Shown piece after piece: positions 18,528 to 23,094 of a stretch of DNA of 64,000 nucleotides. Origin of the DNA: Cephaloticoccus sp. (GTDB lineage: Bacteria > Verrucomicrobiota > Verrucomicrobiia > Opitutales > Opitutaceae); assembly GCA_030833445.1 (NCBI GenBank), contig JAURHD010000012.1:1-64000 (forward strand), read 5' to 3'. A program made the position numbers and the translations under genes. Each line of letters begins with the position of its first letter. Within the stretch, counting starts at the first letter, position 1. The notes under the pieces are model-generated. The model searched no databases. It saw nothing but the letters and a program-made list of their open reading frames with translations, and was not told where the DNA came from.

Positions 18528-21092
18528 ATGAGCGACGCACCGAAACTGACCCCGATGATGCAGCAATACTTCGAGGTAAAGCGCGGGCTGCCCCCGGACA
18601 CGCTGCTATTCTTCCGGCTAGGAGACTTTTTTGAGGTATTTTATGATGATGCGGTCATCGCTTCGCAATTGCTCGGTCTGACGCTCACCAAGCGTCAGGA
18701 TTATCCGATGGCGGGTATACCGTTCCATGCGGCGGATAACTACGTGACCAAGCTGCTCGCGGCTGGCCGCAAAGTCGCGATCTGTGATCAAGCGGAAACC
18801 GCCAAACCCGGCAAACTCGTCAAACGTGCCCTGACCCGCATCCTGACGCCCGGCACCACCTTGGCCGCGAATCAGCTGGATGCGAATCGCAATCATTACC
18901 TGTGTGCACTCCACGTGAACAAGGCGGGTTTGCACGCGGCTTGGCTCGATCTTTCCACCGGCGAATTCCGCCTGGCCTCCGATACCCGTATCGAGAATCT
19001 GCTGCCCGTGCTCACGGCGCTGGATCCGGCCGAATTGATCTTGCCCGAGGAAGAGTTGGGTCGTTGGGCCGCCGCACCCCACGAGGAAACGGGTCTGCAT
19101 GAACTGCACCAGTTTTGTCAGGAGCGACTGACCACGGTGGTGCCGGCCTACAATTTTGAAACGGCCACCGGCGCCAAGACGGTCATGGACACCCTCGGGG
19201 TGCTGAACCTGGAGGGCTTCGGTCTTCCGCACACGCATGCAGCCCTCGGGGCGGCTGGAGCCTTGGTTTATTACGCGACAGAAAATCTCTGCGCAAAGCC
19301 CGAGAACCTGCGTTCCCTCCAGGAATACCGCAGTGCGCAAACCCTCCTGCTCGACCCGGCCACGTTGCGCAATCTGGAGGTATTCGTGTCCAGCCGCGGC
19401 ACACGCGAAGGCTCTCTGCTCAGTGCGATCAATCGCACCAGCACCTCGGCGGGTGCGCGTTTGTTGGAACGCTGGCTGAGTGCCCCGACGCTTGATCTGG
19501 GCGAGATTCACCGCCGGCAACAATTGGTGGGCGAGTTCATCGCTCAACCGAGCCGTTTGGCGGCGATGCAAGAGATGCTCGCCAACGTGCGGGATATTCC
19601 GCGCATTCTGGGCCGGTTGCAAAACCGCCTGCGCAATCCCCGTGAACTCGGCGGTGTGCGCGATACCCTGGCGCAAGTGCCGGTGCTGTTGGCCGAGTTG
19701 GCGGCTTTCGACGGCATGTTGGCGACGGAATACGTTGAACGCATCGTGGATCTGCCTGAATTGCGGGATCTATTATCCCGCGGCTTGGCCGATGAGTTGC
19801 CGGCCGATGTCGCAGACGGGAATTATATCCGCAGTGGCCACGATGCGGAACTCGACCGGATGCGTTCCCTGACCAGTGACAACAAGACTTGGCTGTCTGA
19901 ACTGGAATCGGCCGAGCAACAGCGCACCGGGATCAAGAGCCTGAAGGTCAAGTTCACGAATAATTTCGGGTATTACATTGATGTGACCAAGGCCAACCTG
20001 CACCTCGTGCCGGAAGATTACATCCGGCGACAGACGACGGTCGGCGGTGAGCGCTATGTGACCGAGGCACTCAAGCAAAAGGAAAAGGAGATCTTTCACG
20101 CGGAGGAAAATGCACTGACCCGCGAACAGGATTTGTTTCATGCCTTGGTCTCATCGGTGTTGGCTGATGCCGATAGTCTGGCTCGCACCGCCGAGGCCAT
20201 GGCTGAGATCGACGTGCTGGCCGGCTGGGCCACCCTCGCCCGCGAATGGGATTACGCCCGCCCGGAAATTGATGAGAGCGATACGCTCGAAATCAAAGAA
20301 GGACGTCACCCGGTGGTGGAGCAGATGTTGAAGGCGCCCGAGGCCAACACCGCTCGCGGGGCCAGTGCGGCCTTTGTCCCCAACGATACGGAGTTGTCGG
20401 CGAGCGATGCGCAGCTCGCGCTGATCACCGGTCCCAACATGGCCGGTAAGTCCACCTACATCCGTCAAGTCGCCCTCATCAGCCTTTTGGCTCAGGTCGG
20501 GTGCTGGGTGCCGGCGAAGTCTTGCCGGATCGGTCTGGTCGACCGGATATTCTCGCGCGTCGGCGCGAGTGATGATCTGGCCCGCGGCAATTCGACCTTC
20601 ATGGTCGAGATGAACGAGACCGCGAATATTCTCAATAATGCCAGCAACCGGTCGCTGATCATCCTCGATGAGATTGGTCGTGGCACCTCGACCTACGACG
20701 GACTTTCCATTGCATGGGCGGTGGTCGAACATCTGCATGGCACTGAGGAGGCCGGTCCACGCACGCTGTTCGCCACGCACTACCAGGAATTGACCCAACT
20801 CGAGAAGCACCTGCCACGGCTGCGTAATTTCTCGGTCGCGGTGAAGGAGTGGAACGACGAAATCGTCTTCGTGCGGCGCGTCGTGCCGGGTGCTGCGGAT
20901 CGCAGTTACGGCATTCAGGTCGCGCGGCTGGCCGGTCTGCCGCTGACCGTGATCGACCGGGCCAAAACCATTCTCGCAAAATTGGAAAGCGACGATGTCG
21001 ACGTGACCCTGCCCTCGGTCACACCGGCAGCGCGACCGAAGAAAAAAATCTCGGTCACGCCGCAGGATGACGCCCAGCTCAACTTACTGTAA
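18528..21092 (+). CDS. mutS: DNA mismatch repair protein MutS
   Basis: 854 residues from ATG 18528 (MSDAPKLTPMMQQY). The mismatch-reading Phe-x-Glu lies in GDFFEVFYDDA, the ATPase has Walker A GPNMAGKSTYIRQV and Walker B DEIGRGTSTYDG, and FATHYQEL follows. The C-terminus is typical MutS1. Its last 14 bases overlap the convergent DAHP synthase gene. Confidence 0.97.
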   Translation: MSDAPKLTPMMQQYFEVKRGLPPDTLLFFRLGDFFEVFYDDAVIASQLLGLTLTKRQDYPMAGIPFHAADNYVTKLLAAGRKVAICDQAETAKPGKLVKRALTRILTPGTTLAANQLDANRNHYLCALHVNKAGLHAAWLDLSTGEFRLASDTRIENLLPVLTALDPAELILPEEELGRWAAAPHEETGLHELHQFCQERLTTVVPAYNFETATGAKTVMDTLGVLNLEGFGLPHTHAALGAAGALVYYATENLCAKPENLRSLQEYRSAQTLLLDPATLRNLEVFVSSRGTREGSLLSAINRTSTSAGARLLERWLSAPTLDLGEIHRRQQLVGEFIAQPSRLAAMQEMLANVRDIPRILGRLQNRLRNPRELGGVRDTLAQVPVLLAELAAFDGMLATEYVERIVDLPELRDLLSRGLADELPADVADGNYIRSGHDAELDRMRSLTSDNKTWLSELESAEQQRTGIKSLKVKFTNNFGYYIDVTKANLHLVPEDYIRRQTTVGGERYVTEALKQKEKEIFHAEENALTREQDLFHALVSSVLADADSLARTAEAMAEIDVLAGWATLAREWDYARPEIDESDTLEIKEGRHPVVEQMLKAPEANTARGASAAFVPNDTELSASDAQLALITGPNMAGKSTYIRQVALISLLAQVGCWVPAKSCRIGLVDRIFSRVGASDDLARGNSTFMVEMNETANILNNASNRSLIILDEIGRGTSTYDGLSIAWAVVEHLHGTEEAGPRTLFATHYQELTQLEKHLPRLRNFSVAVKEWNDEIVFVRRVVPGAADRSYGIQVARLAGLPLTVIDRAKTILAKLESDDVDVTLPSVTPAARPKKKISVTPQDDAQLNLL

Positions 21093-22131
21093 CGGCAGCT
21101 TCGCGCTGGATGGTCCAGAGCTGCTTGGCCTGACGGATCAATTTGGTCAGCACCTCCGGCGTGATCGATTGCTTCGGGTCATCGCCGATGCCATGCGACG
21201 GGCTGACATGGCTCTCGATGCAAAGTCCATCCGCACCGTAGGCCACGGCCGCCAGGGCTGCGGCGGGAACATAGGCAGCCTTGCCGACCGAATGCGAAGG
21301 ATCCACGACGACCGCGGCCCAGGTCTTTTCCTTGAGTAGCGGGGTTACGCTTTCGTCGGGATGATTGCGGTAGCCGTCGAGGGTGGGCGTCGTGCCACGC
21401 GGACACAGCATAATGTTGGGATTGCCGAAAGCCGCGATGTATTCGGCGGCGGAAATGAATTCATTGAGCGGGCCCATGTGCACGCTGCGCTTCAACAGGA
21501 CCGAAATTTCCGGTCGATTGCCAATGGCTTTACCGATGGCCCGGAGCAACGAGTAATTGAGGGCATTGCGGGCGCCGACTTGGAGCACCTGCACCCCGGC
21601 ATCGATCGCCAGTTTCAACTGTTCTTCGTCCATCACTTCCGTATCGACCGGTAGTCCGGTGCGCCGGGAGGCCTCCATCAGGATATCGAGGGATTTGTTG
21701 TCACCCTGAAAGGTGTAGGGATTGGTGCGGGGTTTCCACACCCCGCCGCGCAGCACATGGGCGCCTGCCACCTTCATCGCATCAGCGGTTTCGTAGAAGT
21801 AATTGGGGTTCTTCGGGTCGATGGTGCACTGTCCGGCAATGACAAACAGCTCCTCACCGAGGGTCACTCCACCAATGGTGAGCTTGCCTTTCGCCAGATC
21901 GGAACGGCGGTCCATCAATTTGAAAGGCGATTGGATCCGATCAATGCGGTCGATGTAATCGAGCCCTTCGAGCCGGTTGATCATGAGGTCATCGCGCTCG
22001 TCACCCACGATGGCGTAGATGGTCCGCACGGCGCCGATGATTGGCTGGATCTGACAGCCGAATTCAGTTGCGATGGCAGTAACCTCGGCGAGTTGCTCAG
22101 CCGAGAGTCGGTTGGGTTTTGGCAGGATCAT
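21079..22131 (-). CDS. aroF: 3-deoxy-7-phosphoheptulonate (DAHP) synthase
   Basis: 350 residues from ATG 22131. This is the Thermotoga/Bacillus-type enzyme with an N-terminal ACT-like extension (about 1-90) and the KDO8P/DAHP synthase barrel. FVIAGQCTI(DP), LRGGVWKPRTNPYTFQG, GARNALNYSLLRAIG, LCPRGTTP and VVVDPSHSVG are the family blocks that bind PEP, erythrose 4-phosphate and metal. The reaction is the first step of the shikimate pathway. The upstream in-frame GTG/ATG at 22155 would lie in the terminator, so 22131 is chosen. The gene is preceded by a leader peptide and terminator that look like an attenuator. Confidence 0.93.
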   Translation of the reverse strand: MILPKPNRLSAEQLAEVTAIATEFGCQIQPIIGAVRTIYAIVGDERDDLMINRLEGLDYIDRIDRIQSPFKLMDRRSDLAKGKLTIGGVTLGEELFVIAGQCTIDPKNPNYFYETADAMKVAGAHVLRGGVWKPRTNPYTFQGDNKSLDILMEASRRTGLPVDTEVMDEEQLKLAIDAGVQVLQVGARNALNYSLLRAIGKAIGNRPEISVLLKRSVHMGPLNEFISAAEYIAAFGNPNIMLCPRGTTPTLDGYRNHPDESVTPLLKEKTWAAVVVDPSHSVGKAAYVPAAALAAVAYGADGLCIESHVSPSHGIGDDPKQSITPEVLTKLIRQAKQLWTIQREAAVTVS

Positions 22132-22153
22132 GGGTTGGTTGGGTTGGGAAAAC

Positions 22154-22179
22154 AAAAAAGCCGCCCTTGGGAGGCGGCT
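22154..22179 (-). terminator. Terminator hairpin just upstream of DAHP synthase
   Basis: On the minus strand: 7-bp stem AGCCGCC / GGCGGCT, 7-base loop, then six T residues. It ends about 23 nt before the DAHP synthase start codon. It is the 3:4 hairpin of the proposed attenuator and could also end the maf-rluA operon. Confidence 0.85.
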
Positions 22180-22285
22180 GGATTGCGAAAGAGAATGATA
22201 TTCAGCTTAGTTTTCGCGGCAGCCGCCAAGGTGTTTCAGGGCATAGAAGGCCCAGAAACCAAAGCTAAAATAATAGGCGGCGAAA
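22154..22285 (-). promoter_or_regulatory. Putative ribosome-mediated transcription attenuator of DAHP synthase
   Basis: On the minus strand, segment 1 TTTCGCCGCC (22276-22285, just before the aromatic codons) can pair with segment 2. Segment 2 GGCGGCTG (22220-22227, codons 23-25 region) can pair perfectly for 8 bp with segment 3 CAGCCGCC (22173-22180), with 4 more pairs (CCTT at 22228-22231 with AAGG at 22165-22168) beyond a small bulge. Segment 3 also forms the terminator with segment 4 (22159-22165). A ribosome stalled on the aromatic codons would mask segment 1 and let 2:3 form, so transcription continues. A ribosome reaching the stop codon at 22207 would mask segment 2 and let the terminator form. 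The pairing is read from sequence; the mechanism is inferred. Confidence 0.72.
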
Positions 22286-22293
22286 CGAATCAC
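22207..22293 (-). CDS. Aromatic-rich leader peptide (28 codons) upstream of DAHP synthase
   Basis: Reading frame from GTG 22293 to TAA 22207; a TTG at 22329 in the same frame would give 40 codons. Residues 3-19 read RFAAYYFSFGFWAFYAL, so nine of positions 4-17 are Phe, Tyr or Trp. It lies 51 bp after the rluA stop, in the same frame, and just ahead of the terminator. There is no strong Shine-Dalgarno sequence. The position and residue bias are those of an attenuation leader peptide. The alternative is a small membrane peptide. Confidence 0.65.
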   Translation of the reverse strand: MIRFAAYYFSFGFWAFYALKHLGGCREN

Positions 22294-22344
22294 GGGACAA
22301 GGGGTGGGCAGTGCAGTGCGTTTTGTCAATCCCGCACCCGGGGA

Positions 22345-23094
22345 TTACCGTCGACCTACAAACTCAGGGGGCAATGGCGCGGTTGCGCTGAAGTGATGCA
22401 GTCGGCCCGCGTGTTCATAATCAAACGTGGTTTCATGCGAATGGAGAAAGAGGCGCTTCTGCCCCATCTTCTTTTCGAAGTCCCGGTTCTGGGCGAAGTC
22501 GCCGTAGGTGGCATCGCCAACGATCGGCAAGTGACGCTTGGCACATTGCACCCGGAGTTGATGGCTGCGGCCGGTGGTTGGCTCGAGTTTTAAATGGGAA
22601 ATGGCACCCCAGCTGCGCACCAGGGCCATTTTGCATTCGGCCGGAATGTGCCCGGATGTATTAGTGCGGATGTGTCCGCCCTGCTTTTGCACGGCCAACC
22701 GATCACGCCAAAGCTGAGTGGACGCATGTGGTTTGCCAAAGACCAGTGCATGGTAAACTTTGCGCACTTGCTTACGCTTGAAGTGGGCCTTCATCACGCT
22801 CGCCAGCGTTTCGTCAGCGCATATCAGAATCACCCCGGAAGTGGCTGAATCGAGACGGTTCAATAACCAAACCTTTTGAGTCCCGCCCTGCGCATCGGTC
22901 CACTGGAAATACTCGCCATCGAGATTGTAGCGGGCTTGTAAGAGCGAACGCTTTTCTTCGCCGGAGGTATTGGGATGCGAAAGCACGCCGGAAGGTTTGG
23001 CGAGTGCGGCCAAGCCGTTGGCATCGAAAGTAATCACACTGACATCGCGGCCCAAGGGCAGTTGCGCCCAGATGGGTTGATCGGAGTTACTCAC
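22345..23094 (-). CDS. RluA-family pseudouridine synthase
   Basis: 249 residues. The catalytic Asp is in NRLDSATSGVIL, the RLD signature of the family, and TGRSHQLRVQ and GDATYGD are also present. There is no S4 domain, so it is a short RluA/TruC-like enzyme that isomerises uridine in rRNA or tRNA. Its ATG overlaps the stop of the TonB-like gene by 4 bp (23091-23094), showing translational coupling. Last gene of the tolC-maf-tonB-rluA run. Confidence 0.9.
   Translation of the reverse strand: MSNSDQPIWAQLPLGRDVSVITFDANGLAALAKPSGVLSHPNTSGEEKRSLLQARYNLDGEYFQWTDAQGGTQKVWLLNRLDSATSGVILICADETLASVMKAHFKRKQVRKVYHALVFGKPHASTQLWRDRLAVQKQGGHIRTNTSGHIPAECKMALVRSWGAISHLKLEPTTGRSHQLRVQCAKRHLPIVGDATYGDFAQNRDFEKKMGQKRLFLHSHETTFDYEHAGRLHHFSATAPLPPEFVGRR

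Follow-up and report, generated by a model that had tools for sequence, protein, structure and literature searches.

A probable ribosome-mediated attenuator with an aromatic-rich leader peptide upstream of the DAHP synthase gene aroF in the Opitutaceae

In the trpL and pheL leaders of Escherichia coli, codons for the amino acids of the pathway are combined with three mutually exclusive RNA pairings, and the leaders carry a Shine-Dalgarno sequence. At the entry to aromatic amino acid synthesis, published accounts of Corynebacterium glutamicum place an aroR leader with Phe-Tyr-Phe codons before aroF, transcription of which is said to rise by ribosome stalling when Phe is limiting (PMC4046766, PMC11802643). 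Leader transcripts that begin at the start codon of the leader itself have been described for trpL of Sinorhizobium meliloti and for leuL, trpL1 and ilvL of Streptomyces lividans (PMC7298713, PMC8079986). As far as these accounts go, both attenuation of a DAHP synthase gene and leaderless leaders are already known in other phyla. A paper from 2010 stated that, to the knowledge of its authors, leader-peptide systems had been found only in the Proteobacteria and Actinobacteria, to which the Firmicutes were added (PMC2965389). For the Verrucomicrobia, whether the phylum or the family concerned here, we found no report of leader-peptide attenuation in the open-licence full-text literature, in agreement with an earlier sequence-only reading of the present locus whose author knew of no such description for the group.

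The locus lies in a stretch of 64,000 nucleotides from Cephaloticoccus sp. (hereafter the window), the nearest named relatives of which are Opitutaceae (Verrucomicrobia), Cephaloticoccus among them, so that the verrucomicrobial origin first guessed from the letters is borne out. We consider it very likely that this locus contains a ribosome-mediated transcription attenuator of aroF, which is the best explanation of the comparative data presented below. It shares with trpL and pheL of E. coli the three exclusive pairings and the codons of the pathway, but its leader reads Phe and Tyr with or without Trp, has a further hairpin nested within the pairing of segments 1 and 2, and is probably leaderless, unlike the E. 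coli leaders with their Shine-Dalgarno sequence. Like aroR of C. glutamicum, as that leader has been described, it places a peptide with aromatic codons before a DAHP synthase gene; the likeness is one of description and not of sequence, as aroR belongs to an Actinobacterium and has three aromatic residues compared with nine here. The S. meliloti and S. lividans leaders, on the accounts cited, belong to other phyla and to targets other than aroF, and their start sites were measured, whereas ours is inferred. The aroF attenuator would therefore be an independent instance, distinguished by its nested hairpin, its strict spacing and a start that is probably leaderless.

The leader peptide and its locus

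Direct reading of the minus strand confirms a 28-codon frame from a GTG at 22293 to a TAA at 22207 that, with a terminator after it, precedes aroF. Its product is VIRFAAYYFSFGFWAFYALKHLGGCREN, and the nine Phe, Tyr or Trp that had been counted within residues 4-17 are indeed there. The aroF gene, which we propose to be the regulated gene, occupies 21079-22131 on the same strand, and its ATG at 22131 lies 22 nt past the U run of the terminator; the call as 3-deoxy-7-phosphoheptulonate (DAHP) synthase comes from NCBIfam (best match NF006421, E 1.8e-80, below curated cut-offs). The gene upstream, with its stop at 22345, is by NCBIfam an RluA-like pseudouridine synthase, again below cut-offs. In 21500-23000 all Rfam families stay below their gathering scores, the best match being RNAI with 22.3 bits against a required 47, and there were no Rfam matches in 13 loci of the study. 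In four relatives (L108, L100, L170 and L172), extra sequence lies between the terminator and the start of aroF, amounting to about 200 nt in L108.

The density of aromatic codons sets this frame apart, for it is the only one among 1188 short ORFs in the window to have nine aromatics in 14 residues, the other 1187 having at most five. When 65,122 short ORFs were drawn from 40 Markov sequences with the dinucleotide composition of the window, none reached eight in 14 and the maximum was seven. A collection of 80 homologous Opitutaceae leaders was cut by identity to a non-redundant set of 51 (L176 being shifted by 3 nt so as to begin at its ATG), and throughout this set both the coding pattern and the aromatic run are kept. 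Phe codons occur in 51 of the 51, Tyr in 50 and Trp in only 25, and the signal sensed would therefore be chiefly Phe and Tyr; the suggestion that Phe, Tyr and Trp are sensed together thus holds for the first two, but for Trp it could apply only to those leaders that have its codons. Among the 20 canonical leaders of 28 codons, codons 8, 11, 13, 16 and 17 are aromatic in 18, 19, 19, 19 and 20 cases, respectively. At codons 8, 16 and 17 the second base varies while the first hardly does, which amounts to exchange between Phe and Tyr, so homologues conserve the aromatic codons while these two residues interchange; codon 14 is mostly Trp or Arg (TGG or CGG).

RNA segments, helices and spacing

Segment 2 (GGCGGCUG, 22220-22227) and segment 3 (CAGCCGCC, 22173-22180) are exact complements over 8 bp, just as the sequence-only reading had proposed for this antiterminator. 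The terminator that it had placed after the leader frame is likewise confirmed at 22179-22154 on the minus strand, with segment 4 (GGCGGCU, 22159-22165) as its 3′ arm and a U run at 22154-22159. Its helix is near-invariant, being present in all 23 aligned sequences and paired in 100% of the cells that contain letters, and our script's terminator pattern matched in 47 of the 51 leaders, the misses including two leaders without a recognised segment 2. Segment 1, which had been drawn as 10 nt, does pair with segment 2, but over 6 bp only, since it is GCCGCC (22281-22276) that can pair with GGCGGC. The leader RNA as a whole folds better than its dinucleotide shuffles (z -2.63, with 2 of 200 as good). 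The minimum-energy fold of the full length favours the antiterminator and not the combination of 1:2 with the terminator, a result that we count against the attenuator reading.

Between segments 1 and 2 is nested a hairpin, P1, with its 5′ arm (UUUCUGGGC, 22250-22258) within the aromatic codons and its 3′ arm (GCCCUGAAA) at 22234-22242. Five of its eight pairs show two-sided changes, and in tests of fold against synonymous recodings, which took in 42 of the 51 leaders, P1 beat the recodings in all 42 (mean z -1.65 with CDS codon usage and -2.10 with leader usage). The 1:2 duplex did so in 38 of the 42, with a mean z of about -1; it is the weakest helix, paired in 77.5% of cells and no better than recodings in the remaining 4. 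A reading in which 1:2 is not conserved was considered and dropped, as the recoding and cognate-pairing tests showed its conservation.

The antiterminator appears to be extended by an inner stem of GCGAAA (22212-22217) with UUUCGC (22185-22190), the latter lying outside both the ORF and the terminator. In folds this stem varies by lineage, as GCGAA:UUCGC, GCAAA:UUUGC or GUUUU:AAAAC. The antiterminator loop folds better than shuffles in 43 of 47 leaders (z below -1 in 35), L009, L018, L024 and L195 having been left out of this test; the other 4 do no better, and of the closest relatives L002 stands near zero and L004 and L006 above it. Compensatory changes are lacking from the outer 2:3 pairs, which are uninformative for covariation in the aligned leaders because the three segments are nearly invariant. 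We count these uniform pairs, the four loops and the weakness of 1:2 against the attenuator reading. A further measure is whether the arms of one leader pair better with each other than with those of another: cognate arms were superior for the inner stem (z -6.1), P1 (z -7.5) and 1:2 (z -4.4), and in each case 0 of 5000 permutations did as well. Since shared ancestry of related genomes inflates permutation tests of this kind, the sets were also thinned to 65% identity, after which z was -4.3, -5.2 and -3.3, with 0, 0 and 4 of 5000 permutations as good. The covariation that had been looked for between segments is thus found as better cognate pairing in 1:2 and in the inner part of 2:3, but the outer part of 2:3 is too uniform to contribute. 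Taken with the conserved aromatic codons and the linkage to aroF, the cognate pairing supports the original proposal of attenuation of the trp/phe type.

The same conserved positions could be read in another way, as those of an arrest peptide. TnaC is an example of a nascent chain that stalls the ribosome, and here a peptide with the motif GYFTRK..GGCRE would do so in response to a free aromatic ligand, which would account for the conservation of non-aromatic residues such as FTRK and GGC. We regard this as very improbable. The P1 3′ arm and segment 2 fall on the TRK and GGC codons, so that the conservation of these codons is explained at the level of RNA, and they are lost in leaders with a different RNA, such as MSFARAFFAYFWFGYRLAD; moreover, Phe and Tyr swap freely, and related leaders before ilvD and leuA (see below) carry the codons of their own pathways.

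Under the attenuator reading, the position of the codons relative to segment 2 acquires a meaning. In 45 of the 49 leaders included in the spacing test (of 51), segment 2 begins 18 nt past the first base of the last aromatic codon, as it does in the window, the exceptions being L010 (9 nt), L087 (15), L195 (19) and L290 (17). The stop codon, by contrast, ranges over 27 nt while this spacing holds: relative to segment 2 it stands at -3 or -2 in 6 leaders, at +6 in 6, at +17 or +18 in 28 and at +24 in 9. Given the size of the ribosome footprint, a ribosome at any of these stop positions would cover segment 2. The geometry thus fits a device in which segment 2 would remain accessible during a stall at any of the aromatic codons and would be covered by a ribosome at the stop. 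Attenuation predicts a fixed spacing with a shifting stop, and a small protein does not. The idea that the frame encodes a small functional protein, perhaps of membrane type, with the hairpin merely its terminator, draws on the hydrophobic character of the peptide and on the upkeep of its sequence and 28-codon length in close relatives, but we give it hardly any credence: what is conserved in segments 1 and 2, in P1 and in the UUUCGC beyond the ORF is RNA pairing, the frame lies upstream of aroF at all 50 loci checked, and it shrinks to 18-20 codons in six leaders (L025, L097, L196, L197, L282 and L290) with the 18-nt spacing kept (17 in L290).

Putative promoter and proposed mechanism

Upstream of the leader, and 30 nt before its start, the minus strand has a TTGACA (22324-22329) that resembles a -35 box, followed after 17 nt by the -10-like heptamer CACCCCT (22300-22306; consensus CACnnnT), and together these form a putative promoter. 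The distance from TTGACA to the leader start is 29-32 nt in 48 of the 51 leaders and 35 nt in 2; the remaining leader lacks the hexamer. In 50 aligned promoters the columns of the -10-like element are C in 98%, A in 86%, C in 72% and T in 74%. From 22329 to 22300 and in the 50 aligned leaders, TTGACA-N17-CACnnnT is kept though the spacer is not, and the -10 element is unusually rich in C. We think it highly unlikely that aroF is unregulated and that there is only the usual terminator of rluA or a constitutive leader. The proximity of rluA, which stops at 22345, and the fact that its transcripts would also be ended by the terminator speak for this view, but such a terminator needs neither an antiterminator nor aromatic codons, and a conserved TTGACA stands at a fixed distance between rluA and the leader.

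The usual spacing of sigma-70 promoters would put the start of the transcript at the leader start codon or within about 2 nt of it. Of the words that might serve as a Shine-Dalgarno sequence, AGGAG, GGAGG, AGGA and GGAG occur in 0 of the 51 leaders and GAGG in 1. Because TTGACA lies 29-32 nt upstream and there is almost no Shine-Dalgarno-like sequence, the leader mRNA is probably leaderless, on the strength of promoter spacing. This probable start, together with the covarying nested P1 and the fixed 18-nt spacing, goes beyond what had been noticed at first.

A mechanism can be envisioned as follows. The transcript would begin at, or no more than about 2 nt from, the start codon of the leader, and a ribosome would initiate on the bare 5′ end, so that its passage along the aromatic run would open helix 1:2 and the P1 nested in it. 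The attenuator would sense charged tRNA-Phe and tRNA-Tyr, and also tRNA-Trp where Trp codons occur. When Phe and Tyr are ample, the ribosome would get to the stop and cover segment 2, 3:4 would pair, and transcription would terminate 22 nt short of aroF. If either Phe or Tyr is scarce, the ribosome would stall on an aromatic codon and leave segment 2 unoccupied, because the last of these codons sits 18 nt before it; the free segment 2 would then pair with segment 3, extended by GCGAAA:UUUCGC, no terminator would form, and aroF would be transcribed. If no ribosome loads, 1:2 would form and leave 3:4 to terminate. Comparison of the genomes establishes the leader, the terminator, the alternative helices, the spacing and the linkage to aroF; the start site, the stalling and the response to amino acids are those parts of the model that we infer.

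If this scheme is true, the mechanism extends to the Verrucomicrobiota, probably by convergence, and does so on leaderless transcripts, where the leading ribosome has to load onto a bare 5′ end and keep pace with RNA polymerase. This would imply that transcription and translation are tightly coupled in this phylum, and that organisms known only from metagenome-assembled genomes possess an amino acid sensor that can be read from their sequences.

Distribution and related leaders

When 252 genomes of the family were searched with a covariance model built from 23 leaders, 51 matches scored 60 bits or more, and at all 50 loci examined the leader precedes aroF, the one remaining match (G186) being cut by the end of its contig; the linkage to DAHP synthase expected of such a leader is therefore found. 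Diverged leaders scoring below 60 bits (L009, L024, L025, L195, L196, L197, L282 and L290) were verified by inspection of their sequences. The leader was found at 20 of 80 named aroF loci (3 of the 80 have less than 200 nt upstream), and this patchy occurrence, with many aroF loci lacking it, was counted against the attenuator reading. Such a leader was not seen at ten aroF orthologues (L272-L281), of which seven belong to other families within the order. Beyond the family, no match of the model exceeded 33.4 bits among 322 genomes of the order or 30.8 bits among 387 of the phylum, and these scores are at noise level except for G541, with leuA. A GC-rich pattern sought across the window's own genome gave 79 matches against 106 in the control and is uninformative beyond the aroF site. 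Cephaloticoccus primus (L009/L040) and C. capnophilus (L024/L089) have a diverged leader without a recognised segment 2, and C. capnophilus also lacks TTGACA at the usual distance; the divergence and the missing segment 2 are a further point against the attenuator reading.

Weak matches to the model led to other pathways. Of 20 regions with such matches, 13 lie before ilvD-type genes (L194 included) and 3 before aroF; L192, L193, L198 and L199 were judged to be chance. A further 20 weak matches included a second ilvD leader (L311), a leuA leader (L292) and a repeat of L185, with no convincing leader in the rest. In all, 14 Opitutaceae genomes have a comparable segment 2 and terminator upstream of ilvD (L180-L191, L194 and L311), the identity of IlvD being given by NCBIfam for 2 of the 14 and by likeness of the gene start for the others. 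Between 11 and 16 residues of their leaders, such as MILNVALIALITVVLALLATDPNTPGRLATATSS, are Ile, Leu or Val. In 12 of the 14 the start is 35-44 nt away from a TTGAC, a distance at which a leaderless start is less clear.

A Leu-rich leader before leuA accounted for one weak match, from a different family of the phylum. Among 30 leuA loci from other Verrucomicrobiota (L312-L341), 14 have TTGACA 28-32 nt before a short ORF, compared with 0.2 expected in shuffles, and these ORFs, which are mostly but not all Leu-rich, are probably leaderless Leu attenuators. The codons of the leader thus follow the pathway of the gene behind it for aroF, ilvD and leuA, as attenuation predicts. No Trp-rich leader was found before trpE in 27 loci, which was counted against the attenuator reading.

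With rather less confidence than for aroF itself, we lean towards a wider view in which leaderless attenuation is a general control of amino acid biosynthesis in the Verrucomicrobiota, one scaffold having been retuned from aroF to ilvD in the Opitutaceae and leuA leaders with Leu runs serving in other families; the 18-nt ruler would then report a ribosome footprint that has not been measured in this phylum. If so, aroF, ilvD and leuA would form a natural series from which to learn what sets the spacing between stall codon and antiterminator. Before the ilvD of the window's own genus no such leader was seen, and 60 ilvD and pheA loci of close relatives (L212-L271) yielded no short ORF rich in branched-chain or aromatic residues, a weak result, as frame or strand was wrong for some. 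In the window's genome (G000, contig C33, 61305-64771) as in several relatives, pheA and ilvD lie near each other in divergent orientation.
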